This document shows, in pieces, positions 30-32,276 of a stretch of DNA of 64,000 nucleotides (its first letter is position 1; each line of letters starts with the position of its first letter). The notes beneath the pieces were generated by a model, which was given only the letters and a program-made list of their open reading frames with translations, was not told the origin of the DNA and did not search any database. The translations under genes were made by a program, and so were the position numbers. The DNA lies in NCBI GenBank assembly GCA_001464585.1, contig LNFF01000006.1, positions 62,001-126,000 of the forward strand. The letters run 5' to 3'. The DNA is from Gammaproteobacteria bacterium Ga0077554. GTDB taxonomy: Bacteria; Pseudomonadota; Gammaproteobacteria; Ga0077554; Ga007554.

Positions 30-1385
30 ATGCAAACTAATTTCGAAAAATATTCGCTGTTGACAGCGCGCGTGCTGACCGTAGCTATTCCATTATTTCT
101 GGTTACCGGGCGTGCGGCGGCCGATGTAGCAATTTTGCTGATCGCCTTGCTGTTCATAGTGCGCAGTATTGTTACACGGGATGGGTCATGGCTGCGTGCC
201 ACTTGGGTGCGTTTCGGCCTGGCACTGTGGGTATGGATGCTGCTGATCAGTAATTTTGCCTTTGATGTGGGCTTGTCTTATATCCAGGCCGTGCCGTGGC
301 TGCGATTTTTATTGTTTGCGGTGGCGCTGGAGGCGTGGGTACTGAATACGGTATGGATACGCCGCCTGGTGATCAGCGCCACAGTGATGCTGGTATTGGT
401 TGCCGTGGATGCCTGGTGGCAATATTTTACCGGCTTTGATTTTTTAGGGCATCCACGTCCCTCCGGAACGCGGCTTACCGGCCCTTTCGATGATTTGCGG
501 GTAGGAACTTACCTGCTCAAGTTGATGTTTCCCGCCTTGCTCGGGTTTGCGCTGTGGCGCATCGGGGAAAAGGCAAATATCGGGTTTAAGCTGTTCTTGG
601 GTATTGCCGCGTTGGTGGTGATCGGCGCGGTGTTTGTCAGTGGCGAGCGCATGGCGTTTTTACTGCTGGTGTTGGGTTTGGTTCTGGCGGCGGTGTTGCA
701 AAAAGGTGCGTTGCGCGCTGCCGTGGCAGGCGTGCTGGTCACGGGTGCAGTAGGGGTTGGTGTGGTGGCGATGGCAGATCGCGCCATGCTGGAGCGGCAG
801 TTCACGTCGGTGGTTACCACTCTCTCCATATTTCGTGATACTCCGTATGGCGAACTGTGGCGTAGCGCACTGCAATTGGGTAGTGAACGGCCTGGGACGG
901 GTGTCGGCATGAAGAATTTCCGCGTGGCATGCAAAGACCCGCAGATTGGTTTGCCTGAAGAAGTAGAGGGTCGTTGCGGTACTCATCCGCACAATCTTTA
1001 TCTGGAATGGTTCTCTGAATCGGGCGTGCCGGGATTGATGCTATTTTTATTAATGCTTGCCGCTTTGGCCAAACATCTGTGGCAAGGTTGGCAAATAGAG
1101 TACAGCCGTGCGTGGATGGCCGGCCCGGTGATTGCGGTGATTATCCAGCTGTGGCCAATAGCAACTACTGCCAGTTTTTTCTCTAACTGGAGCGGTGCGC
1201 TGATGTGGCTGGCGATAGGTTGGGCGCTGGCGGCGGCGCGGGTGGGACAGCAACAAGAGAGTGTGCGTAATAGCGTGCCTGTTAGAATTATAATCCCCCC
1301 TAACCCCCCTTTTTCAAAGGGGGGTGATGGAGGCAGCGTGCTAGAGCCTCCCCCCTTTGAAAAAGGGGGGCAGGGGGGATTATGA
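30..1385 (+). CDS. O-antigen ligase / polymerase-like membrane protein (Wzy_C family)
   Basis: A very hydrophobic protein of about 451 residues with roughly ten membrane segments. A large hydrophilic loop near residues 270-340 contains the pattern GxGMKNFR...THPHNLYLEWFSESG, typical of the WaaL/Wzy_C ligase-polymerase family. Such inner-membrane enzymes transfer or polymerise undecaprenyl-linked glycans in the periplasm. I chose the ATG at 30; an upstream in-frame TTG at 3 is also open, and the window edge hides what lies before it. The last 30 or so residues (PPNPPF, KGG, PPPFEKGG) are not ligase sequence. They are translation of an inverted repeat at 1291-1382. The gene overlaps the next glycosyltransferase by ATGA, so the two are probably translated together. 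Whether it acts on LPS or exopolysaccharide cannot be told. Confidence 0.8.
   Translation: MQTNFEKYSLLTARVLTVAIPLFLVTGRAAADVAILLIALLFIVRSIVTRDGSWLRATWVRFGLALWVWMLLISNFAFDVGLSYIQAVPWLRFLLFAVALEAWVLNTVWIRRLVISATVMLVLVAVDAWWQYFTGFDFLGHPRPSGTRLTGPFDDLRVGTYLLKLMFPALLGFALWRIGEKANIGFKLFLGIAALVVIGAVFVSGERMAFLLLVLGLVLAAVLQKGALRAAVAGVLVTGAVGVGVVAMADRAMLERQFTSVVTTLSIFRDTPYGELWRSALQLGSERPGTGVGMKNFRVACKDPQIGLPEEVEGRCGTHPHNLYLEWFSESGVPGLMLFLLMLAALAKHLWQGWQIEYSRAWMAGPVIAVIIQLWPIATTASFFSNWSGALMWLAIGWALAAARVGQQQESVRNSVPVRIIIPPNPPFSKGGDGGSVLEPPPFEKGGQGGL
1291..1382. repeat. Inverted-repeat (MITE-like) element inside the end of the ligase gene
   Basis: The left arm (1291-1324) starts TAATCCCCCC and ends CAAAGGGGGG. 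The right arm (1350-1382) is its near-perfect reverse complement, ending GGGGGGATTA. The 25-base centre is unrelated. It is read through in frame as a proline/glycine/lysine-rich tail. The right end supplies AGGGGGG as ribosome-binding site and the A of the ATG of the downstream glycosyltransferase. Confidence 0.85.
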
Positions 1386-3985: not shown

Positions 3986-4909
3986 TTATTTTACTAACGT
4001 GAGCCATTCAGGATGTTCGGCACGCCGGCCATGCACCTGATCAAAGTAAAGCGTTTGCAGACGTTCGGTGAGGATACCACGCTGGCCTGTGCCAATAGCG
4101 CGGCCATCGACTTCGCGGATCGGCGTGACTTCGGCGGCAGTGCCGGTGAAGAAGGCTTCATCGGCCACGTAGAGTTCGTCACGCGTAATGCGTTTTTCAT
4201 GCACGCTAATTCCCAGTTCTGCGGCAAGTGTAAAAATGGTGTTGCGCGTAATGCCATCCAGCGCTGAAGTTAATTCGGGCGTATACAGCACATTGTCACG
4301 CACTATAAAAATATTCTCACTGCTGCCTTCGGCCACGAAACCGTCAACATCTAGCAGCAGTGCTTCGTCGCAGCCACACGCCAATGCTTCACGTAGCGCC
4401 AGCATCGAGTTGATGTAATTGCCGTTCGCCTTGGCCTTGCACATGGTGATATTAGGATGGTGGCGCGTGTAGGATGAGGTTTTGACGCGCAACCCTTTTT
4501 CCATATTTTCCGCGCCGAGGTATGAGCCCCACGGCCACGCAGCGATCATCATATGCACCTTGAGATTATCGGCGCGCAAGCCCATGCCTTCGGCACCATA
4601 AAAGCACATCGGGCGAATGTAACCGGCATCCATGTGATTTTCGCGTACGGCGGCGCGCGTCGCTTCGTTGATAACGTCTTTGCTGTAGGGCATGGGCATG
4701 CCCATGATATGCGCGGAGCGGAACAGGCGGTCGGTGTGCGCCTGCAGGCGGAAAATTGCGGTGCCTTTATCGGTGGGATAGGCGCGCACGCCTTCGAACA
4801 CGCCCATGCCATAGTGCAGGGTATGGGTGAGTACGTGGACTTTCGCATCGCGCCACGGCACGAGTTGCCCATCCATCCAGATCACGCCATCGCGATCAGC
4901 CATTGTCAT
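3986..4909 (-). CDS. ilvE: Branched-chain amino acid aminotransferase
   Basis: A 307-residue class IV PLP enzyme, the usual length. It catalyses the last step of leucine, isoleucine and valine synthesis, exchanging amino groups with glutamate. Visible landmarks are THTLHYGMGVFEGVRAY near residues 27-43, the lysine region CKAKANGNYINSMLA that holds the PLP-binding lysine, and the C-terminal EVTPIREVDGRAIG. It starts at an ATG with AAAGGA upstream; an in-frame ATG two codons later is also possible. It heads a likely two-gene operon with the zinc-finger protein. Confidence 0.95.
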   Translation of the reverse strand: MTMADRDGVIWMDGQLVPWRDAKVHVLTHTLHYGMGVFEGVRAYPTDKGTAIFRLQAHTDRLFRSAHIMGMPMPYSKDVINEATRAAVRENHMDAGYIRPMCFYGAEGMGLRADNLKVHMMIAAWPWGSYLGAENMEKGLRVKTSSYTRHHPNITMCKAKANGNYINSMLALREALACGCDEALLLDVDGFVAEGSSENIFIVRDNVLYTPELTSALDGITRNTIFTLAAELGISVHEKRITRDELYVADEAFFTGTAAEVTPIREVDGRAIGTGQRGILTERLQTLYFDQVHGRRAEHPEWLTLVK

Positions 4910-4983
4910 GCTAAGTGTTTCCTTTAGAGTAGTTATTCCAATTTTCGTTAGAAGTGTCTATATCTTTCGCAGATATTATTTAA

Positions 4984-5067
4984 CTGTCATTTCGAGCAGC
5001 CTTATTAGCCCCCGCGAAAGCGGGGGGAGAAACCCTTAAGATTCCGCACATGCGTTCGGAATGACAG
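4984..5067. repeat. Dispersed intergenic repeat, GAAATGACA family
   Basis: Bounded by CTGTCATTTCGAG on the left and TCGGAATGACAG on the right, so the ends are inverted. It has an internal hairpin CCCCCGCGAAAGCGGGGG. It sits between glnE and ilvE, which run in the same direction. Confidence 0.75.
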
Positions 5068-5076
5068 GTGTTGTTT

Positions 5077-7980
5077 TTATACGCCCATCACTGCGTGCCA
5101 CAGGCGCGTTACCGCCGCGCGCTCGTCACGGAATTCGGTGTCGCTGACCTGTGCTGGCTCTTCCTGCAAGGTGAGGCGGTGCAGTGCGGCGCGGTAGGCA
5201 CGGTAGGCGTTACTGAGCTGCTGTACATCGTGCTCCGGCATTAATCCGGCGGCGGCAAAGCCCTGTAACTGCCGGATATTATCCGTAAAATCGGCCAGCG
5301 CCGGATGATCAGAAGTCCACGCCAAAACCCCATATTGAACCATAAATTCGATGTCGGCGATACCACCTTGCTGCTGTTTCAGGTCAAAATACCCTGCCTG
5401 GTGCAAACCAAGCTCGGCGCGCATACGCTTACGCATCTCAGCCACCTCTTTGCGCAAAACTGCCGTATCGCGGTGGCGTGCGAGGATTTCATGGCGCAAT
5501 TCATTGAAAGTGGTGGCACATGTCGCGCTACCCGCCACTACCCGTGCGCGCACCAGAGCTTGATGTTCCCAGGTCCAGGCTTCGTTGCACTGGTAATCGG
5601 CATACGCTGCCAGGTTGCTGACCAGCAGGCCGGATGTGCCACTGGGACGCAAACGCATATCCACTTCATACAGCGTGCCCGACGGGGTTTGCGCGCTCAA
5701 AATATGGATGATGCGCTGGCCGAGCCGCGCAAAAAATACCGCGTTGTCGATGGCTTTCTGGCCGCTGGATTGTTGCCCGCTGGAATGTTGCTGGTCACCC
5801 GCGCTGTCATGAAGAAACACCAGATCAAGATCAGAGCCATAACCCAGTTCAATGCCGCCCAGCTTGCCATAGCCGATGATGGCAAAGCCGGCGTTATGCG
5901 TTACGCCGTCGAGCGTGTATTGCGGCACACCATGCCGGGCGGTGAGATGATTCCAGGCCAACCACAGGGCTTGAGTTAGCACCACTTCGGCGATGTCGGT
6001 GAGATGGTCGCTGACGACCATCAGCGGCATAGCGCCTGCCACATCGGCCGCCGCCACATGCAGCACCGCCGCCTGTTTGAATTGGCGCAAGGTTTCCATC
6101 TGCTGTTCCAGATCGTCATCGGCGATGGCGCTTAGCCTCTCAGCCAGATCGCGCTCCAGTGCATGGCGATTCAGCGGGGCATAGAGCGTGCGCGGATCAA
6201 GCAGTTCATCGAGTAAGACGGGCTGACGCGCCAGCAGACGGGTAATCCACGGGCTGGCGGCGCACAGCTTTACCAGTTGCGACAAGGCCAGCGGATTTTC
6301 CGCAAGCAGCGCCAGATAGGCGGTGCGACGCGCAATCGCTTCCAGTATTTGAATCAGGCGCAGCAAGGTGGTGGTGGGGTGCGGTGTTGCGCTGATGGCG
6401 CCGAGCAGCAGTGGCATCAGGCGATCCATGCGCGCGCGGCCTTGATTGCTCAGCGCGCGATACGTGTGCCCTTCACGCAGACGTGCGCACAACCGCGAGG
6501 CTTCAGCAGGGTCATCAAAGCCCGCTGTGGCAAGCACGCTGTGCGCCTGGATTTCATTGAGATTGCCTTGCCAGAGTGCATTCAGATCAGGCGTGTCGGA
6601 GACGGTGGAGTGTTCATGCGTCTGTGGCGCCACGAACACCTGATCAAAATATTCTTGCACCCGCTTCGTGTGCTGGTCGAGCGCGTGTGAAAAACTTTCC
6701 CAGTCGGCATAATTCATCGCCACAGCCAATTGTGCGCGCGGTATTGGCTCTACCGGTAAAGTATGCGTTTGTTGATCTGCCAGTTCCTGCAAGCGATTTT
6801 CAGCACGCCGCAAGAAAATATAGGCCTCACGCAAATCGTGGCTGACATAATGTGGCAGGTGGCCACGTTCCGCAAGTTGCTCCAGCGTGCGTAGAATCTG
6901 CCGCGATTGCAATGCCGGTTCCCGCCCACCGCGAATCAATTGAAACGCCTGGCCAATGAATTCAATTTCGCGGATACCGCCGGGACCGAGCTTGATATTG
7001 CCGTGTAATCCTTTGCGCTCCACCTCACGGCGTATCATGTCTTTCATCTCACGCAACGCTTCAAACGTACCGTAATCCAGATAGCGGCGATACACAAACG
7101 GGCGTAATCGCTGCAACGCTTGTTCGCCCGCCGCCACATCGCCCGCCACCGCGCGCGCCTTAATGAGCGCGTAGCGTTCCCACTCGCGGCCGTGGGTTTG
7201 ATAATACTCCTCAAGCGCATCAAAACTCACCGCCAGCGGGCCACTCTCACCATACGGCCGCAAGCGCATATCCACGCGAAATACATAACCTTCGGCCGTG
7301 ATATCGCTCATGGCATTGATCAGACGCTGGCCCAGACGCGTGAAATATTCCTGATTACTCAGATGACGCGGGCCGTCGGCCTGGCCGTCTTCAGGGTAAG
7401 TGAAAATCAGGTCAATGTCAGATGAAAAATTTAACTCACTTCCACCCAGTTTACCCATCCCCAGCACCATCAGGTGTTGCGGCACGCCATCGCTGTTATG
7501 AGCAGTGCCTTGCTCTTCGCGCAGCCACTCATGCAGGCGCTGTAATGCCGCATCCAGGCACGCATCGGCCAGCCACGATAATTCACGCAGGGTTTCATCG
7601 AGATCGGCCCAGCCCGCCAGGTCGCGCCAGGCAATACGCACTTTCTCGCGGCGCGCGGTGTGGCGCAGTGCCGCCCCCAGGGTTTGCTCGTTGTTTGCGC
7701 CATTGACGGTCGCCAGGCACTTATTGTGGTATTCGCCGGGCAGATAAGCGCGCCGTAAATCACCGCTGCACAGTAAATCATCCAGCATCTGTGGATAGCG
7801 GACGCACTGCTCGGCAAGCCAATCGCTGCACGCCCATACCATGTCAGTTTTGTCAGGTAGTTCAGGCAGTTGAATGCCATATGTGAGTGCGGCTGCTGCC
7901 AGGGTTGCCCGGTAATCCTGCATTTTTGTTTTGAATGTTATAAGCGTGGTGAATGGTATGGTTTGGATCATATCGATCAT
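5077..7980 (-). CDS. glnE: Bifunctional glutamine synthetase adenylyltransferase / adenylyl-removing enzyme
   Basis: A 967-residue protein of typical GlnE length. It adds AMP to and removes it from a tyrosine of glutamine synthetase, in response to PII proteins and glutamine. It has two nucleotidyltransferase domains. The N-terminal removase half has GGSELNFSSDIDLIFTYPEDG near residue 180; the C-terminal transferase half has GGIELGYGSDLDLVFLHD near residue 700. Both Asp-x-Asp metal motifs are intact, so both activities should be present. The start is one of two close in-frame ATGs (7978 or 7969). It stands alone between two repeat-bearing gaps; pilU is divergent. Confidence 0.95.
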   Translation of the reverse strand: MIDMIQTIPFTTLITFKTKMQDYRATLAAAALTYGIQLPELPDKTDMVWACSDWLAEQCVRYPQMLDDLLCSGDLRRAYLPGEYHNKCLATVNGANNEQTLGAALRHTARREKVRIAWRDLAGWADLDETLRELSWLADACLDAALQRLHEWLREEQGTAHNSDGVPQHLMVLGMGKLGGSELNFSSDIDLIFTYPEDGQADGPRHLSNQEYFTRLGQRLINAMSDITAEGYVFRVDMRLRPYGESGPLAVSFDALEEYYQTHGREWERYALIKARAVAGDVAAGEQALQRLRPFVYRRYLDYGTFEALREMKDMIRREVERKGLHGNIKLGPGGIREIEFIGQAFQLIRGGREPALQSRQILRTLEQLAERGHLPHYVSHDLREAYIFLRRAENRLQELADQQTHTLPVEPIPRAQLAVAMNYADWESFSHALDQHTKRVQEYFDQVFVAPQTHEHSTVSDTPDLNALWQGNLNEIQAHSVLATAGFDDPAEASRLCARLREGHTYRALSNQGRARMDRLMPLLLGAISATPHPTTTLLRLIQILEAIARRTAYLALLAENPLALSQLVKLCAASPWITRLLARQPVLLDELLDPRTLYAPLNRHALERDLAERLSAIADDDLEQQMETLRQFKQAAVLHVAAADVAGAMPLMVVSDHLTDIAEVVLTQALWLAWNHLTARHGVPQYTLDGVTHNAGFAIIGYGKLGGIELGYGSDLDLVFLHDSAGDQQHSSGQQSSGQKAIDNAVFFARLGQRIIHILSAQTPSGTLYEVDMRLRPSGTSGLLVSNLAAYADYQCNEAWTWEHQALVRARVVAGSATCATTFNELRHEILARHRDTAVLRKEVAEMRKRMRAELGLHQAGYFDLKQQQGGIADIEFMVQYGVLAWTSDHPALADFTDNIRQLQGFAAAGLMPEHDVQQLSNAYRAYRAALHRLTLQEEPAQVSDTEFRDERAAVTRLWHAVMGV

Positions 7981-15961: not shown

Positions 15962-16047
15962 CTCTGAAAACGGCGATCGAGCCGTAGAGCAGATTGTGCT
16001 ATGAAATTTTTTCGTGTCTTTCGTGGATGGGTACGTGCATCACATCA

Positions 16048-18180
16048 ATGACTAATATGCTCGATATCGGTGTCATCAGTTATTTGGCCGCTGCCCTGCT
16101 GTTTTTAGTGCTGTCGCTGTTATTAATGACCAGTTGGCGCGGACGGTTGCAAGGGGCGTTATTGGTCGGCGCATGCGTGGTCACTGTCCTGTGGGCTACG
16201 GTGGTGGCCTACCATGCCGCACGTGATTATCCGGCATCGCTGCTGGTGCCGCTACTGGAAATCATACGCAACGCAGTATGGTTTGCGTTTCTGATCCGGT
16301 TATTACATCCGGTCGAAATAGCGGCGCCCATGTCTACCCGGCTAAAGATACTCACGGCGCTGGTGTTGGGTATGTGCCTGGTGTTGCTGGTGCTGCTGTA
16401 TGTGGGCGGCAGTATTTACGTCAATATTTTCGGGCAGGTGTTTTTGTCCATCATCGGGCTGGGGTTAGTCGAGCAGGTTTATCGTAACACCGTGCCGGAA
16501 CGGCGGTGGGCGCTTAAATTTCTGTGCCTGGGCATTGGTGGCATGTTTGCGTATGATTTATTTTTATATTCGGACGCCTTGCTGATACAACGCGTTGATA
16601 TGGATTTGTGGAATGCCCGTGGCATGATCACTGCGCTGGCCGTGCCGCTGATTGCTTTTTCTGCCGCACGTAATCCGCAGTGGTCACTGGATGTCTTTGT
16701 TTCACGGGGCATCGTTTTCCATACGGCCGCCTTGATGGGAGCGGGTCTGTATCTGCTGGTGATGGCCGCCGCCGGATATTACATTCGCCTCTATGGCGGC
16801 ACCTGGGGCACGGCAGTGCAGGTGATCTTCCTGTTTGGTTCTGCTGTCATATTGCTCATTGCAATCGCCTCTGGACAGGTACGGGCGCGTGTTAAAGTTT
16901 TTTTTAATAAACATTTTTTCAGCCATAAATATGATTACCGGGAAGAATGGCTGCACTTTATACGTACCCTGGCGGGCGGCGAAGCCGGGCAGCCCCTGTC
17001 ATCCATTCCCGGACGCGAGCGTGCCATCCAAGCGCTTGCGCAGATTGTGGATAGCCCAGCAGGGTTAGTATGGTGGCGGCAGGATATGATGGCGTCATCA
17101 GGCGATGATGGTGGATCACCCTTTGTGCTGCTGGCACGCTGGAATGCCGGGCAAAACGTGGCGGTTAGCAATATGGAAAGTGGTTCCTTGATGCGTTTTC
17201 TCGACACGACCCAATGGATTATTGACCTGGGACAATATGCTAAAGCACCGGATTTTTATGTTGGCCTGGATCTCCCGCAATGGTTGCGCGAACTGAGCGG
17301 GATGCCCAATGGCGCCTGGTTGGTGATTCCATTGATCCTGCATCAGCGCGTATTGGGATTCATGGTATTAATGCAGCCCCGCGCAGCGCGGGCGGTTAAT
17401 TGGGAAGACCGTGATTTGTTAAAAACCGCAGGCTGCCAGGCGGCCAGTTATATTGCGCAACTCGAAGCCACCAAAGCATTAGTACATGCACGCCAGTTCG
17501 AAGCATTTAACCGGTTGTCAGCTTTTGTAGTGCATGACCTGAAAAATCTGGTAGCGCAACTGGCCCTTGTGGTGTCGAACGCAGCAAAGCATAAAAACAA
17601 TCCAGCGTTCATGGAAGATGCCATTAATACCGTGGAAAATGCCACGCTGAAGATGAATCGTCTGCTCATTCAGTTGCGTGCTGGCAGCGTGCGGCCGCAT
17701 ACTGTCAGGCAGTTGCTGGATCTTGATACGCTGTTGCGTGAAGTCATTGCAACGCGCGCGCATGTGAAGCCAGTGCCCGAACTGCAATGCGCCGAGAACC
17801 GCCTGCGCATACAGGCAGATCGCGATCGGCTTGCCGCCGTGTTTGGGCATATTATACAAAATGCCCAGGATGCCACGCCGCCCGAGGGTTATGTAAAAGT
17901 GCGCCTGTACAACAGTACTGATAATAATAGTGGGGCAGGGCAGGCGGTGCTGGAAGTGGAAGACAGTGGTCACGGAATGGATGCCAGGTTTATCCGCGAA
18001 CGCTTATTTCAGCCATTTCAAACTACCAAAGGTAACGCCGGCATGGGTATTGGTGTGTATCAGAGCCGTGAAGTGGTGCGTGAATTGGGCGGGGATGTTG
18101 AGGTGGTCAGTGAACCGGGCAAAGGTACACTTTTTCGTGTACGAATCCCGCTGGATTTGACCGCGCCAGCGGGCGCTTGA
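16048..18180 (+). CDS. prsK: PEP-CTERM system sensor histidine kinase
   Basis: About 710 residues. Roughly eight or nine membrane segments fill residues 1-285, then a GAF-like domain (about 300-480) and a kinase core. The phosphorylated histidine is in FVVHDLKNLVAQ near residue 496; the N box is HIIQNAQDATPPEG, and the G boxes are EVEDSGHGMD and GMGIGVYQSREV. This layout is that of PrsK, the kinase encoded with exosortase/PEP-CTERM systems. I chose the ATG at 16048; the open frame extends to 15994 but its extra residues are not hydrophobic membrane sequence. prsR follows after 65 bp. The input signal is unknown; membrane or envelope state is a guess. Confidence 0.88.
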   Translation: MTNMLDIGVISYLAAALLFLVLSLLLMTSWRGRLQGALLVGACVVTVLWATVVAYHAARDYPASLLVPLLEIIRNAVWFAFLIRLLHPVEIAAPMSTRLKILTALVLGMCLVLLVLLYVGGSIYVNIFGQVFLSIIGLGLVEQVYRNTVPERRWALKFLCLGIGGMFAYDLFLYSDALLIQRVDMDLWNARGMITALAVPLIAFSAARNPQWSLDVFVSRGIVFHTAALMGAGLYLLVMAAAGYYIRLYGGTWGTAVQVIFLFGSAVILLIAIASGQVRARVKVFFNKHFFSHKYDYREEWLHFIRTLAGGEAGQPLSSIPGRERAIQALAQIVDSPAGLVWWRQDMMASSGDDGGSPFVLLARWNAGQNVAVSNMESGSLMRFLDTTQWIIDLGQYAKAPDFYVGLDLPQWLRELSGMPNGAWLVIPLILHQRVLGFMVLMQPRAARAVNWEDRDLLKTAGCQAASYIAQLEATKALVHARQFEAFNRLSAFVVHDLKNLVAQLALVVSNAAKHKNNPAFMEDAINTVENATLKMNRLLIQLRAGSVRPHTVRQLLDLDTLLREVIATRAHVKPVPELQCAENRLRIQADRDRLAAVFGHIIQNAQDATPPEGYVKVRLYNSTDNNSGAGQAVLEVEDSGHGMDARFIRERLFQPFQTTKGNAGMGIGVYQSREVVRELGGDVEVVSEPGKGTLFRVRIPLDLTAPAGA

Positions 18181-18245: not shown

Positions 18246-19634
18246 GTGAATACGGTAACAAAAAATACATTGTTAATCGTTGAAGATGATCCCGGGCTGC
18301 AAAGTCAGTTGAAGTGGTGCTTTGAAGGCCTGGATGTGGTGGTGGCCGGTGACCGTGAAGCCGCTTTAGCGCAGCTACGCCTCTACGAACCGCTGGTGGT
18401 TACCCTTGATCTTGGTTTGCCCCCCGATGCCAGTGGCGCAAGCGAAGGACTGGCAACCTTGGCACAGATTATTACCATTGCCCCGCGCACCAAGGTGATC
18501 GTAGTAACAGGCAATGATGACCGCGAAAATGCAGTGCGTGCCATTGCGCTAGGCGCCTATGATTTTTATCAAAAGCCGGTTGATCCGGAGATTTTATCAC
18601 TGATTGTAAATCGTGCCTTTCATCTGCATCAACTGGAAACTGAAAATCTCGCGCTGGCCGCAGCGCAACGCGTCACATCACCGTTGTCGGGCATCATTGC
18701 TTCCAGTCCGCAAATGCTCAAAGTATGCCGTACCGTCGAAAAAGTAGCGCCCACCAATGTGACAGTGCTGTTATTGGGCGAAAGCGGTACCGGCAAGGAA
18801 CTGTTTGCCCACGCCCTACATGATCTGAGCAACCGTGCTGAGCGGCGTTTTGTCGCACTCAACTGCGCGGCAATTCCTGAAACACTCCTCGAAAGCGAAT
18901 TGTTTGGTTATGAAAAAGGTGCGTTTACCGGAGCCAACAAAAAAGTCAGGGGCAAAATAGAGCATGCGGAGGGTGGAACACTTTTTCTTGATGAGGTAGG
19001 TGATTTACCGATGGCGTTACAAGCCAAATTATTACGTTTTTTACAGGAACGTGTCATCGAACGTATCGGCGGACGTGAAGAGATCGCCGTTGATGTACGC
19101 GTCATTTGTGCGACGCATCAGGATATCCTTAAACAGGTGCGTGCTGGCCACTTTCGTGAAGATCTGTATTATCGTGTCAATGAGTTGACCATCAATATTC
19201 CCCCATTGCGGGAGCGCGAAGGTGATATACCCCTGGTGGCGCGCGCGTTGCTGGATAAATATTGTATGCAGCACCATAAACCCCGGCGTGATTTCAGCCA
19301 AACCGCCATGGCGGCGATTGAAGCGTATGAATGGCCGGGGAATGTCCGTGAACTGGAAAATCGCATTAGTCGCGCAGTCATCATGAGCGAGGGCGATCAC
19401 ATCGAAATGGAAGATCTGGAGTTTGTTGCGGAAAATAATGTGGGCGATAAAGGCCAGGCCAAACCGACACCCCTTAATTTACGGCAGGTACGTGATGAAG
19501 CGGAGCGTCAGGCCATTATCAGGGCGTTGAACTGGTTTAATGGCAACATAGTTCAAGCCGCCGATGCGCTCGGTATCAGCCGGCCTACGCTGTACGATTT
19601 AATCAATAAATTTGGCCTTAAAGAAAAGCTCTGA
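18246..19634 (+). CDS. prsR: PEP-CTERM-box sigma-54-dependent response regulator
   Basis: A 462-residue NtrC-type activator. The receiver domain (1-125) has acidic EDD at 12-14, the phosphorylated Asp in VTLDLGLPP near residue 55, and KPVD near 115. The AAA+ domain has Walker A GESGTGKE, the sigma-54 contact loop GAFTGA, and Walker B GGTLFLDEVG. The C-terminal Fis-type helix-turn-helix ends NIVQAADALGISRPTLYDLI. All parts needed to activate sigma-54 promoters are intact. It starts at GTG (18246) with AGGAG upstream. By family knowledge, PrsR switches on PEP-CTERM protein and polysaccharide genes; no target promoter was recognised in this window. Confidence 0.92.
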   Translation: MNTVTKNTLLIVEDDPGLQSQLKWCFEGLDVVVAGDREAALAQLRLYEPLVVTLDLGLPPDASGASEGLATLAQIITIAPRTKVIVVTGNDDRENAVRAIALGAYDFYQKPVDPEILSLIVNRAFHLHQLETENLALAAAQRVTSPLSGIIASSPQMLKVCRTVEKVAPTNVTVLLLGESGTGKELFAHALHDLSNRAERRFVALNCAAIPETLLESELFGYEKGAFTGANKKVRGKIEHAEGGTLFLDEVGDLPMALQAKLLRFLQERVIERIGGREEIAVDVRVICATHQDILKQVRAGHFREDLYYRVNELTINIPPLREREGDIPLVARALLDKYCMQHHKPRRDFSQTAMAAIEAYEWPGNVRELENRISRAVIMSEGDHIEMEDLEFVAENNVGDKGQAKPTPLNLRQVRDEAERQAIIRALNWFNGNIVQAADALGISRPTLYDLINKFGLKEKL

Positions 19635-19659: not shown

Positions 19660-22491
19660 ATGAAAAATAGTAATGGCATAAACGCTGATACAAATAAAGG
19701 CACACCACGACTTTCTGTGCTGGCATTAGCATTGTGTACAGCATTAAACCTGACAGCGCTGGATATTACGCTGGCCTATGCCGAAGATAACCAAAAATTG
19801 ATGGGTGAAGCTAAAAATTACTTGCAGCAAGGCAATATTAAGGCTGCCATTATCCAGCTTAAAAATGCGCTTCAAGAAAATCCCGATGATAAAGAAGCGC
19901 GGTTGATGCTGGGCCAAATTTATCTGAAAATGGGCGATGGCCCGTCTGCCGCCAAAGAACTGAAACGCGCGCAGGATTTAGGTATAGCCAGTGATAGAGT
20001 GCTTTTCCCGCTGGGTAAAGCCTATTTGCTGCAAGGCCGTAATGAATCCGTATTGCAGGAAATTCAGCAGCCTGCCAATGCCTCCGCAGATCTCAAGGCA
20101 GGTATTTTAACCCTGCATGGACATGCCAATTTGGCATTACGCAAACCTGACCAGGCAAAAGAAAAATACCAGGAAGCGCTGACAATACGCCCGAACTTTC
20201 CCGATGCACTGATTGGCCAGGCGCGTATTGCCTTTATGGAAAAAAAGCCTGATCAAGCGTTGTCATTGACTGAGCAGGCCCTTAAAGCTGATCCAAAAAG
20301 CATTGAATCCTGGATAATGAAAGGTGATCTGCAACGTGCTGCTGGGCGTCATGCAGAGTCATTACAGACATTTCAGAAAATCCTGCAACTTGATGCGGAC
20401 AATGTTCCTGCGTATTTAGGGCGTGCCGCAGAACATCTCGCCCTGGGTAAAGTTGCTGAAGCTAAAAAAGATATTGAGGCGATACGCAGCCGTGTACCCG
20501 GCCACCCGCTTGCGAATTATTTGAGCGCGCATGCATCGTTTCAGGAAAAAAACCTGAATGCCGCGCAGGATTCCTTGCAACAAGTATTAAAAGTAATACC
20601 GGGTCACATGCCCAGCCTGTTATTACTGGGGAATATACATTACTTGCAGGGTCAGTTTTCACAGGCAGAAAGTGAGCTGTCCCGCTATGTCGATGCCGTG
20701 CCAGAGCAAGTGGCCGCCCGGCGGTTATTAGCCGCTACCTTAATGAAGCTCAAGCGACCCCAGGAAGCCATTAAAATACTCGAGCCTGCCTTAAAAAATA
20801 ATGACAAGGATCCACAGTTATTGGCATTGCTGGGCAGTGCCTACATGCAAAGTGGCAAGCTCGATAAAGGCACGGAATACCTGGAGCAGGCGGCTGTTTT
20901 GGCGCCTAACGCGACTGATATACGCACTCAACTGGCAATGGGTCGTCTTGCTGCGGGTGAAACGGAAGTGGCGGTAAAAGAACTGGAATCCATTGTTGAG
21001 CTGGGTCAGGAACCGACGCAGGCCAATATTTTGCTGGTATTAAGCCATTTGCAAAAACGCAATTTCGACAAGGCGTTGCAAGCGGCCCAGCAAATGTCAA
21101 AAAAAGAACCGAAAAATCCTGTGGCCTATAATTTTATGGGTGTCTCTTACCTGGGTAAAAAAGACCTGGCTTCCGCACGCAAGCAATTTGAGCGTGCATT
21201 GCAGGTACAGGCCGAATTTACACCCGCACACATGAATCTGGCGCGCATTGACACGGAGCAGAAAAAACCGCAGCAGGCCGAGCAGCACTATAATGCTGTA
21301 CTCAAATATGATGATAAACATGTGGCTGCCATGATCGGCCTGGCAAGCTTGTCAGCCGCCGCGAATAAAGAAAAAGAAGCCATGACGTGGCTGGAAAAAG
21401 CACGCGAAAGAAATCCTAAAGCGCTTGAGCCGGTATTGCTGCTGATTAATATACATCTGCGCCAGAATGAGCCGCTCAAGGCCTTGAGTGCCGCGCAGGG
21501 CATTGCTGAAGAGCATGAAAACAATCCCATTGCACTGCAAGCGTTGGCGCAAGCTCAGTTAGCGGCGGGGGAGACCAGTAGCGCATTGTCTACCTTCCGT
21601 AAACTGACCGATAAACTTCCGCAGTCTCCCCAGGCACAGCATATGCTTGCTACAGCGCAACTTGCGGCAAAAGATTCCAAGGCTGCGGCAACCAGCCTAA
21701 ACAAAGCGCTCAAGCTTGACCCTAATTATGTACCCGCCGCCGCCGCGCTGGCTGATCTGGAAATGCGTGATAACCGCCCCAAAGAAGCGTTACGTATCGC
21801 CCAGCAGATTCAGCAGCAGCAACCAAAAATTGCGGCAGGTTATGAGCTCGAAGGCAATATTCACATGGCGGGACGCGCCTATGCAAATGCCGCCAAGGCG
21901 TATGATAATGCCTGGCAACGCAATAAAAGTGGTGCGCTTGCAATTCGCCTATCGCAAGCCCGCAAGCAGGCCGGTGATGCTGCGGGTGCTTATCAGGTGC
22001 TGACACAATGGTCGGCCGAACATCCGCAGGATGTCGGCGTACTCATTGCTCTGGCTGCCGCGTATCAAACCGATGGAAAGCGCAAAGAAGCCATCGACTA
22101 TTACCAGAAGACCCTGGCGATCCAACCCAAAAATGCGGCGGTATTAAATAATCTGGCCTGGGTTTATTACGAGCAGGGGGATGCACGCGCGCTCGAGTAT
22201 GCAGAAAAAGCCTATAACCTCATGCCAGACCAGGCGCCCATTATTGATACGCTAGGCTGGATTCTGGTACAGAAAGGCCAGGTAAAACGCGGTGTGGAAT
22301 TATTACAGGCCGCTGCCACCAAAGCGCCCACTTCGCTGGATATTCGTTATCATCTGGCCGCTGGGTTGGAAAAAGCCGGGCGTCGTGACGACGCCCGTAA
22401 AGAACTGGAACGTGTTCTGAAGGGCAATGAAAATTTTTCTGAAATAAATGCCGCTCGCGAACTCCTCAGAAAAATTAAAGAGAATAGATAG
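19660..22491 (+). CDS. prsT: PEP-CTERM system TPR-repeat protein
   Basis: A 943-residue protein made almost entirely of tetratricopeptide repeats (for example AKNYLQQGNIKAAIIQLKNAL, then LNNLAWVYYEQGDARALEYA near the C-terminus). An N-terminal hydrophobic signal LSVLALALCTALNLTALDI precedes them. It matches PrsT, the large TPR protein encoded after prsKR. The family is usually called a lipoprotein, but here the only signal-region cysteine is in LALC, a poor lipobox, and AYA-ED offers an alternative signal peptidase I site. Such proteins act in the periplasm, probably as scaffolds for polysaccharide export or protein sorting. The ribosome-binding site GGGAGA is well placed. The dif site begins 27 bp after its stop. 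Confidence 0.88.
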   Translation: MKNSNGINADTNKGTPRLSVLALALCTALNLTALDITLAYAEDNQKLMGEAKNYLQQGNIKAAIIQLKNALQENPDDKEARLMLGQIYLKMGDGPSAAKELKRAQDLGIASDRVLFPLGKAYLLQGRNESVLQEIQQPANASADLKAGILTLHGHANLALRKPDQAKEKYQEALTIRPNFPDALIGQARIAFMEKKPDQALSLTEQALKADPKSIESWIMKGDLQRAAGRHAESLQTFQKILQLDADNVPAYLGRAAEHLALGKVAEAKKDIEAIRSRVPGHPLANYLSAHASFQEKNLNAAQDSLQQVLKVIPGHMPSLLLLGNIHYLQGQFSQAESELSRYVDAVPEQVAARRLLAATLMKLKRPQEAIKILEPALKNNDKDPQLLALLGSAYMQSGKLDKGTEYLEQAAVLAPNATDIRTQLAMGRLAAGETEVAVKELESIVELGQEPTQANILLVLSHLQKRNFDKALQAAQQMSKKEPKNPVAYNFMGVSYLGKKDLASARKQFERALQVQAEFTPAHMNLARIDTEQKKPQQAEQHYNAVLKYDDKHVAAMIGLASLSAAANKEKEAMTWLEKARERNPKALEPVLLLINIHLRQNEPLKALSAAQGIAEEHENNPIALQALAQAQLAAGETSSALSTFRKLTDKLPQSPQAQHMLATAQLAAKDSKAAATSLNKALKLDPNYVPAAAALADLEMRDNRPKEALRIAQQIQQQQPKIAAGYELEGNIHMAGRAYANAAKAYDNAWQRNKSGALAIRLSQARKQAGDAAGAYQVLTQWSAEHPQDVGVLIALAAAYQTDGKRKEAIDYYQKTLAIQPKNAAVLNNLAWVYYEQGDARALEYAEKAYNLMPDQAPIIDTLGWILVQKGQVKRGVELLQAAATKAPTSLDIRYHLAAGLEKAGRRDDARKELERVLKGNENFSEINAARELLRKIKENR

Positions 22492-22518
22492 TCCCCCTTA
22501 TATGGTATCGAAAACGTA

Positions 22519-22546
22519 ACTTCGCATAATGTATATTATGTTAAAT
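22519..22546 (+). other. dif: Chromosome dimer resolution site dif
   Basis: A 28-bp site built as ACTTCGCATAA (XerC half), TGTATA (centre), TTATGTTAAAT (XerD half). The centre and XerD half are identical to E. coli dif and the XerC half differs at three outer bases, giving 25 of 28 matches. The tyrosine recombinases XerC and XerD act here with FtsK to separate chromosome dimers at division. Genes on both sides point towards it: prsKRT rightward, der through miaA leftward. This marks the replication terminus. Confidence 0.93.
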
Positions 22547-22584
22547 TAGTACGCTTGTTTTGACTCTGATGGCGAAAGAAATTT

Positions 22585-23976
22585 TCAGGATTTGCCGTAA
22601 TGGCGCCGCATGCGCTGGCGTTTTTGTATCTGGCGTGGGGTGAGTATGTTCTTTTTATCGCGGTAGGGATTCTCGCTGCCCTTGAATTCAACCACCAACG
22701 GCGTGCCTTCCAGCTTCAAAATCTCACGAAACGCATTGGAAAGGTAACGCCGGTACGCGCCAGGAACAGCGTCAACCTGATTGCCATGAATAATAATCGT
22801 CGGCGGATTCTGGCCGCCTTGATGCGCATAACGCAGCTTGATGCGGCGGCCATGCACTAACGGCGGCTGATGCTGCTTTACCAGATCCATAAGATAGCGC
22901 GTGAGTTGTGGCGTAGAAAGTTTTTGCGTCGCGGACTGATAAGCGCGATCAACGCCCGCCATCGCTTTGTCAACGCCAGTGCCCTGCAGTGCAGAAATAA
23001 AATAAACCGTCGCAAATTCCAGGAAGGGTAACTTGCGCTCCACCTCACGCTTCAGATACGTGCGCTGCTCGGTATCCAGCTTGTCCCATTTATTCACGGC
23101 AATCACCAGCGCCCGGCCACTTTCCAGCACAATGCCCGCCAGCGTCGCATCTTGATCCGTCACGCCGCTATCGGCATCCAGCACCAGCACAACTACATGG
23201 GCTTCTTCTACCGATTGCAGGGTTTTTACAACGCTGAATTTTTCCACCATGTCGGTGACTTTGTGGCGACGCCGCACGCCCGCCGTATCAATCAAGGTAT
23301 AGTGGCGTTGATCGCGTTCAAAGGGAATGGAAATGCTATCGCGAGTCGTGCCCGGTTCATCAAACGCCAGCACGCGCTCCTCGCCGATAATGCGATTTAC
23401 CAGCGTGGATTTGCCAACATTGGGCCGCCCGACTATGGCCACCTTAATGCCAGACGCAAGATCCGTTTCACTGCCTTCAGACTCGATCGGCAAGGGCGTT
23501 AACACCGCCTCCATCATGTGGCCTATACCATCGCCGTGGGTAGCAGATACCGGATACGGCATCCCCAAACCCAGCGCCTGGAATTCCGCGCTGACGATGG
23601 CGGCGTTCAGCCCTTCTGCCTTGTTCAGTATCAGGTATACCGGCTTACCAAATTGCCGCAGATGCCGCGCAATATCCTGATCACCGCTGGTCATGCCAGC
23701 ACGCCCGTCCACCAGAAACAGGATCACGTCAGACTCCTGCACCGCCAGCATCGCCTGCTCAGCCATCAACGAATCAATGCCGTCACGCTCGCCGCTTAAA
23801 CCACCGGTATCGACTGCAATATAAGGCCGATCCCCTACTCTGCCGGTGCCATAAATACGGTCACGGGTCAGCCCCGGCTGATCCGCCACCAACGCCGCGC
23901 GCGACTGCGTCAAGCGATTAAACAGCGTGGACTTTCCTACATTGGGACGTCCGACAAGGACGATAACGGGTTTCAT
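22585..23976 (-). CDS. der: Ribosome assembly GTPase Der (EngA)
   Basis: A 463-residue protein with two GTPase domains in tandem and a C-terminal KH-like domain, the unmistakable Der layout. Domain one has GRPNVGKST at residues 8-16 and LNKAEG; domain two has GRPNVGKST near 184, DEPGTTRDS and NKWDK. The C-terminus is basic ([18 protein letters not shown]). It is essential in most bacteria for maturing the 50S ribosomal subunit. It is the first gene on the right side of dif and is transcribed towards it. No gene adjoins it closely upstream: a 310-bp repeat-bearing gap follows. Confidence 0.96.
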
Positions 23977-25659: not shown

Positions 25660-26415
25660 TTATTTAAGACGTGCTACACGCTGCCGCACCGCCTCAAACA
25701 GGCAAATACCCGTGGCGACGGACACATTCAGGCTTTCCACGGTGCCTTGCATGGGGATGCGCACCAGTAGATCGCAATGCTCCCTGGTAAGACGCCGCAT
25801 GCCCTGCCCTTCGGCACCCATCACCAACACTGTCGGGCCGCGCAAATCGGCGCTGAACACATCGCCATCACCTTCGGCATCCGCACCCACTGTCCAGAGC
25901 CCTTTATCTTTGAGGGCGCGCAAGGTGCGCGCAAGATTCGTAACCTGGATAAACGGCACCGTTTCTGCGGCACCGCTGGCGACTTTGCGCACTACCGGTG
26001 TGAGACCCACGGCGCGGTCACGCGGTGCAATCACAGCATGCACGCCCGCTGCGTCAGCACTGCGCAGACAGGCGCCAAGATTATGTGGATCCTGCACGCC
26101 GTCCAGCACCAGCAATAAGGGGGGCACCAACAGCCCGTCCAGCAATTGATCGAGATCATCTTCCTGCCACACGGTGACGGCACGGCAACGCGCCACCACA
26201 CCCTGGTGACGCGCATCCGGCACCAGCGCATCCAACTCTTTGCCAGTGACACGCCGCACTTCGGTATGTTGCGCTGCGACATGATCCAGCAGCGCCTGAA
26301 CACGCGCGTCTTTACGGCCTGACTCAATCATCACCTCAATGATATTCGACGCATCACGTTGTAACGCGGCTTGCACAGCATGTATGCCGTATATGATGTG
26401 CTGCGCTGTTTTCAT
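25660..26415 (-). CDS. rlmB: 23S rRNA (guanosine-2251-2'-O)-methyltransferase
   Basis: A 251-residue SpoU (TrmH) family enzyme that methylates the ribose of G2251 in the peptidyl-transferase loop. The N-terminal L30e-like substrate domain begins IIYGIHAVQAAL. The knot domain has LDGVQDPHNLGACLRSADAAG, VLVMGAEGQGM and IPMQGTVESLNVSVATGICLFE, the three SpoU motifs. Its ATG overlaps the rnr stop codon, so the two are translated together, as in many gammaproteobacteria. Confidence 0.95.
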   Translation of the reverse strand: MKTAQHIIYGIHAVQAALQRDASNIIEVMIESGRKDARVQALLDHVAAQHTEVRRVTGKELDALVPDARHQGVVARCRAVTVWQEDDLDQLLDGLLVPPLLLVLDGVQDPHNLGACLRSADAAGVHAVIAPRDRAVGLTPVVRKVASGAAETVPFIQVTNLARTLRALKDKGLWTVGADAEGDGDVFSADLRGPTVLVMGAEGQGMRRLTREHCDLLVRIPMQGTVESLNVSVATGICLFEAVRQRVARLK

Positions 26416-32090: not shown

Positions 32091-32276
32091 TTAATGCACC
32101 AGGTACAGCAACCCTACCCCGACTATCATGCTTACCAACCCGGCAATGCGTAACGCCTTGTCATCCATTTGCGCAATGGTAGACATGGTTTGGCGCCAAC
32201 CGTGTGGGTTGAGAAAGGGCATGATGCCCTCTATGACCAGCACCAGCGCCAGGGCTGCGAACAGATCTTGCCACAT
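32091..32276 (-). CDS. yjeT: DUF2065 (YjeT-like) small membrane protein
   Basis: A 61-residue protein with two membrane helices (LFAALALVLVIEGIMPFLNP and IAGLVSMIVGVGLLYLVH) joined by a short polar loop with WRQTMSTIAQMDD. It is the DUF2065 family, almost always found after hflC, as here. Its function is unknown; association with the HflKC complex is suggested only by gene order. Confidence 0.9.
   Translation of the reverse strand: MWQDLFAALALVLVIEGIMPFLNPHGWRQTMSTIAQMDDKALRIAGLVSMIVGVGLLYLVH

Follow-up and report, generated by a model that had tools for sequence, protein, structure and literature searches.

A predicted chromosomal dif site at the replication terminus of Gammaproteobacteria bacterium Ga0077554, between prsT and der

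The convergent genes prsT and der of Gammaproteobacteria bacterium Ga0077554 are separated by a short spacer, in which a sequence-only reading of the locus recognised a dif site marking the replication terminus. This raises the question of whether the 28 bp concerned are the dif site of the chromosome itself and lie where the replication forks normally meet. The window analyzed is a stretch of 64,000 nucleotides (contig LNFF01000006.1, positions 62,001 to 126,000). The features of the locus are listed in Table 1.

Table 1. Features at and around the dif site, in window coordinates (C6 denotes positions on the whole contig).
Feature	Position	Strand	Remarks
dif site	22519..22546	+	25/28 identical to E. 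coli dif; sole site in genome
dif layout	XerC arm 22519-22529, central 6 bp 22530-22535, XerD arm 22536-22546	+	
Imperfect inverted repeat centred on dif	22517..22548	.	14-nt arms, 79% complementary, 4 nt apart (repeat search)
Spacer between prsT and der stops (convergent), containing dif	22492..22584	.	93 bp; ORF list
prsK, XrtA/PEP-CTERM histidine kinase, neighbour outside the dif system	15994..18180	+	TIGR02916, 810 bits, cut-off 300
prsR, PEP-CTERM-box response regulator, neighbour	18246..19634	+	TIGR02915, 710 bits, cut-off 503
prsT, TPR protein, left neighbour of dif	19660..22491	+	TIGR02917, 887 bits, cut-off 312
der (engA) GTPase, right neighbour of dif	22585..23976	-	TIGR03594, 572 bits, cut-off 307
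GGGNAGGG octamer towards dif	1368..1375	+	window count not above chance
GGGNAGGG octamer towards dif	17933..17940	+	window count not above chance
GGGNAGGG octamer towards dif	25802..25809	-	window count not above chance
GGGNAGGG octamer towards dif, missed by the sequence-only reading	32112..32119	-	window count not above chance
Cumulative GC skew maximum, 261-kb contig	22668 (= C6:84668)	.	strand-corrected changepoint C6:83573

Alignment of the plus-strand 28-mer at 22519-22546 (ACTTCGCATAATGTATATTATGTTAAAT) with E. coli dif confirmed the 25 matching positions first reported. The three mismatches are all located in the outer XerC arm, and the centre and the XerD arm are identical. None of the dinucleotide shuffles matched E. 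coli dif as this 28-mer does, and the number of chance matches expected at 25 or more of 28 positions is 1.6e-7 per 64 kb and 7e-6 per genome. The site has a low G+C content (6 of 28 bases) and is intergenic, being bounded by the stop codons of prsT (22491) and der (22585). The idea that dif doubles as a transcription terminator for these two convergent genes was rejected: the terminator scan and folding found no intrinsic terminator-like site at dif, and folding was no better than that of shuffles.

The search for further dif-like sites was extended to the draft genome (2.91 Mb, 44 contigs), which is 97% complete, so that the missing few per cent might contain something else. A single match at ≤3 mismatches in 26 was found, and thus no second site of the kind that would have spoken against the earlier assignment. 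The reversed-sequence control of the same 2.91 Mb gave no matches. Exactly one dif-like site was present in 30 of the 56 genomes searched, namely, the genome under study and 29 related ones, and none of the 56 contained two.

A site of this kind might instead belong to a mobile element, either a plasmid that has integrated or an XerCD-using phage, rather than being the chromosome's own dif. Some viral contigs carry the identical sequence: the exact 26-mer was detected in 62 of them, and a Zot-domain protein is encoded by all four short ones whose proteins were scanned (6.5–7.1 kb), as expected of filamentous (Zot-bearing) phages, which use XerCD and integrate at dif. However, an integrated element would leave two copies of the site where this genome has one, no phage gene is located beside dif, and the chromosome's own skew switch, described below, coincides with it. 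A mobile origin of the site is therefore very unlikely. Phage integration at dif was rejected on account of the single copy; unlike a filamentous-phage insertion, the locus contains no such element and has host genes on both sides.

The position of the terminus was assessed using GC skew. On the 261-kb contig, the cumulative skew climbs to a point 135 bp from the dif centre (window position 22668) and then declines to the contig end, in agreement with the switch near 22.53 kb that the sequence-only reading had named as a check. The closeness of 135 bp is partly luck, since the block bootstrap of the changepoint covers about 71 to 106 kb of the contig, and the true precision of the maximum is about ±15–20 kb. 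In 161 proteobacterial chromosomes, the distance from dif to the skew maximum has a median of 7277 bp and a smallest value of 146 bp (PMC2731167).

The switch at dif is independent of gene strand. Its changepoint survives strand correction, lying 961 bp (~1 kb) to the left of dif, and in a model that includes gene strand, the side of dif explains the skew with t = 8.8 for whole genes and t = 8.7 for third codon positions. In addition, the sign of the skew switches across dif in intergenic DNA. It is thus highly improbable that the switch at 22.5 kb is a mere effect of the convergent operons prsKRT and der-miaA, with the terminus elsewhere: gene strand does affect skew (t = 6.3), but a change across dif is seen in genes of either strand, at third codon positions and in intergenic DNA alike, and the corrected changepoint stays within 1 kb of it. 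Skew was sampled in stretches of contigs C6, C40, C32, C8, C12 and C41 (1.12 Mb of 2.91 Mb in all), and no strong interior maximum was found in the five contigs other than C6.

As for the origin, the contig carrying dnaA shows a skew minimum a few kb upstream of this gene. Contig 38 (4518-5315) gave a second DnaA-like match, which contains one in-frame TAG and scores below the cut-off (95 bits). Contig 40, which is not the dnaA contig, has an origin-type cumulative skew minimum near 226738 (~227 kb), the right arm of which is weak. It is not a rival terminus and may stem from an inversion or from an acquired segment.

The genome also encodes the proteins that act on dif. XerC and XerD, proposed earlier as a check of the assignment, were both identified above their NCBIfam cut-offs, XerD on contig 40 (376 bits, cut-off 330) and XerC on contig 17 (348 bits, cut-off 335). 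The FtsK gamma domain was found on contig 32 (PF09397, 95.9 bits, cut-off 30.6). Because the sequence shares 25 of 28 positions with E. coli dif, is unique, lies at the skew switch and is accompanied by XerC, XerD and FtsK gamma, it is almost certainly the chromosomal dif site, situated where replication forks normally meet, and would be the site of chromosome-dimer resolution at the terminus. The placing of dif and the terminus between prsT and der, as first proposed, was upheld.

By analogy with the E. coli system, once recombination has left the sister chromosomes joined as a dimer, FtsK would pump the DNA until the two dif copies meet at the division septum. In both copies, XerC would bind the left arm and XerD the right; XerD would be activated by the FtsK gamma domain, and two monomers would result from two strand exchanges across the 6-bp centre.

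The site shares with proteobacterial dif/XerCD systems of the E. coli type (Carnoy and Roten 2009, PMC2731167; Kono et al. 2011, PMC3025954) the 28-bp 11-6-11 layout and the conserved XerD arm, and it is likewise low in G+C, palindromic, intergenic, present in a single copy and located at the cumulative GC skew maximum of a genome with XerC, XerD and FtsK gamma. Leaving aside occurrence across several strains of the species, the properties by which Carnoy and Roten recognise dif (PMC2731167) were all found here. Compared with E. coli dif, the three changes fall in the outer XerC arm, which is known to vary, and no functional difference was seen. The feature is therefore genuine and ordinary, and new only as one more case.

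The only possible departure from the known dif/XerCD system concerns XerC. Its gene (contig 17, 10370-11419; L048:1474-2523) contains an in-frame insertion of roughly 35 residues, the first part of which is a 44-bp palindromic repeat (TAGGTCGGGTTGAGACCCGACATGTCGGGTTTCAACCCGACCTA). In a congener, genome G002, the match to the full XerC spans a shorter stretch (969 bp), so the insertion looks, at least in part, specific to the genome under study.

Two further arguments of the sequence-only reading, octamers of the FtsK-guiding type and gene direction, carry little weight as first presented. The three GGGNAGGG octamers said to aim at dif are real and so oriented, and a fourth was found. All four in the 64-kb window point towards dif, but their number is not above chance (4 observed against 5.4 expected, sd 2.6). 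On the 261-kb contig, 22 of 29 octamers are directed towards dif (Fisher p = 0.067). The strand-bias check suggested earlier showed a preference for the leading strand: in 0.98 Mb of sequence oriented by skew, 85 octamers are leading and 36 lagging, against 59:40 expected from dinucleotides. The leading share of 70% compares with a mean of 59% for G-rich permutations, which places the octamer 4th of 56 permuted patterns. Among patterns of the form XXXNXXXX, it ranks only 111 of 7571. The bias may be regarded as a mild signal in the right direction and no proof of FtsK guidance.

Gene direction agrees with the earlier description only close to the site. PrsK, PrsR, PrsT and Der are all above their NCBIfam cut-offs, as originally named. 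A TIGR03013 glycosyltransferase gene and prsK, prsR and prsT run rightward into dif, and all 12 called protein genes from der to miaA, where the run ends, run leftward into it. Beyond this, the agreement is lost: over the whole contig, according to a simple codon-score gene caller, 33 of 61 genes on the left and 72 of 134 on the right are directed towards dif.

The statement that a PEP-CTERM signalling operon and der lie at the terminus is true of this genome and does not extend to its relatives. Neither der nor prsT was found within 1.5 kb of dif in any of the 29 dif-bearing relatives, several of these loci being cut by contig ends. Within the family, the genes are distant from dif or on other contigs; in one relative (G006), 1.17 Mb of a single contig separates der from dif, and prsT lies on a different contig. 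Conservation of prsT or der beside dif was thus rejected, and the position of prsKRT and der near the terminus has no evident meaning or function, since it is not conserved. Carnoy and Roten (2009, PMC2731167) likewise described dif as lacking a specific genetic environment.

The change of neighbours was observed even within the genus. Der of G002 is 98% identical, yet other genes lie beside dif in that genome. The right flank of its dif, from 330 bp past the site, is collinear with contig 35 of the genome under study, and the DNA downstream of its der differs. Homology to the congeners ends at contig base 84478, in the last codons of prsT, and at 84585-84589, at the stop codon of der. Since homology stops on both sides of the spacer, the congeners examined lack the join that holds dif. 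The prsT-dif-der arrangement thus appears, from these comparisons, to be a lineage-specific rearrangement and not a conserved rule.

When the flanks of dif and der in G002 were traced back, they corresponded to few-kb blocks shuffled among several contigs here, so no single inversion could be reconstructed. It is conceivable, though improbable, that the dif spacer is a preferred breakpoint of chromosome rearrangement, with neighbours changing between congeners and dif staying at the terminus. The blocks around der of G002 also map to several contigs, which indicates a general reshuffling of gene order in which dif is not necessarily exceptional. A literature search on dif as a rearrangement breakpoint returned only one paper, on fused Vibrio chromosomes.

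The site adds one case to the hundreds of predicted dif sites. For a lineage of which little is known, it gives a draft genome a fixed terminus and orientation, an aid to scaffolding, and the change of neighbourhood within one genus provides a small, checkable example of dif without a fixed genetic environment.

Two minor observations were made during these comparisons. A dispersed repeat of ~68 bp is located at a join of two syntenic blocks in G002 (contig 19; L167:7210-7277) and recurs on contigs 40, 19, 30 and 22 of the genome under study. In addition, several relatives have a second, divergent prsT-like gene (L103:13600-16296, L184, L185, L187, L188; 29–43% identical), which in some of them is located directly downstream of the first.
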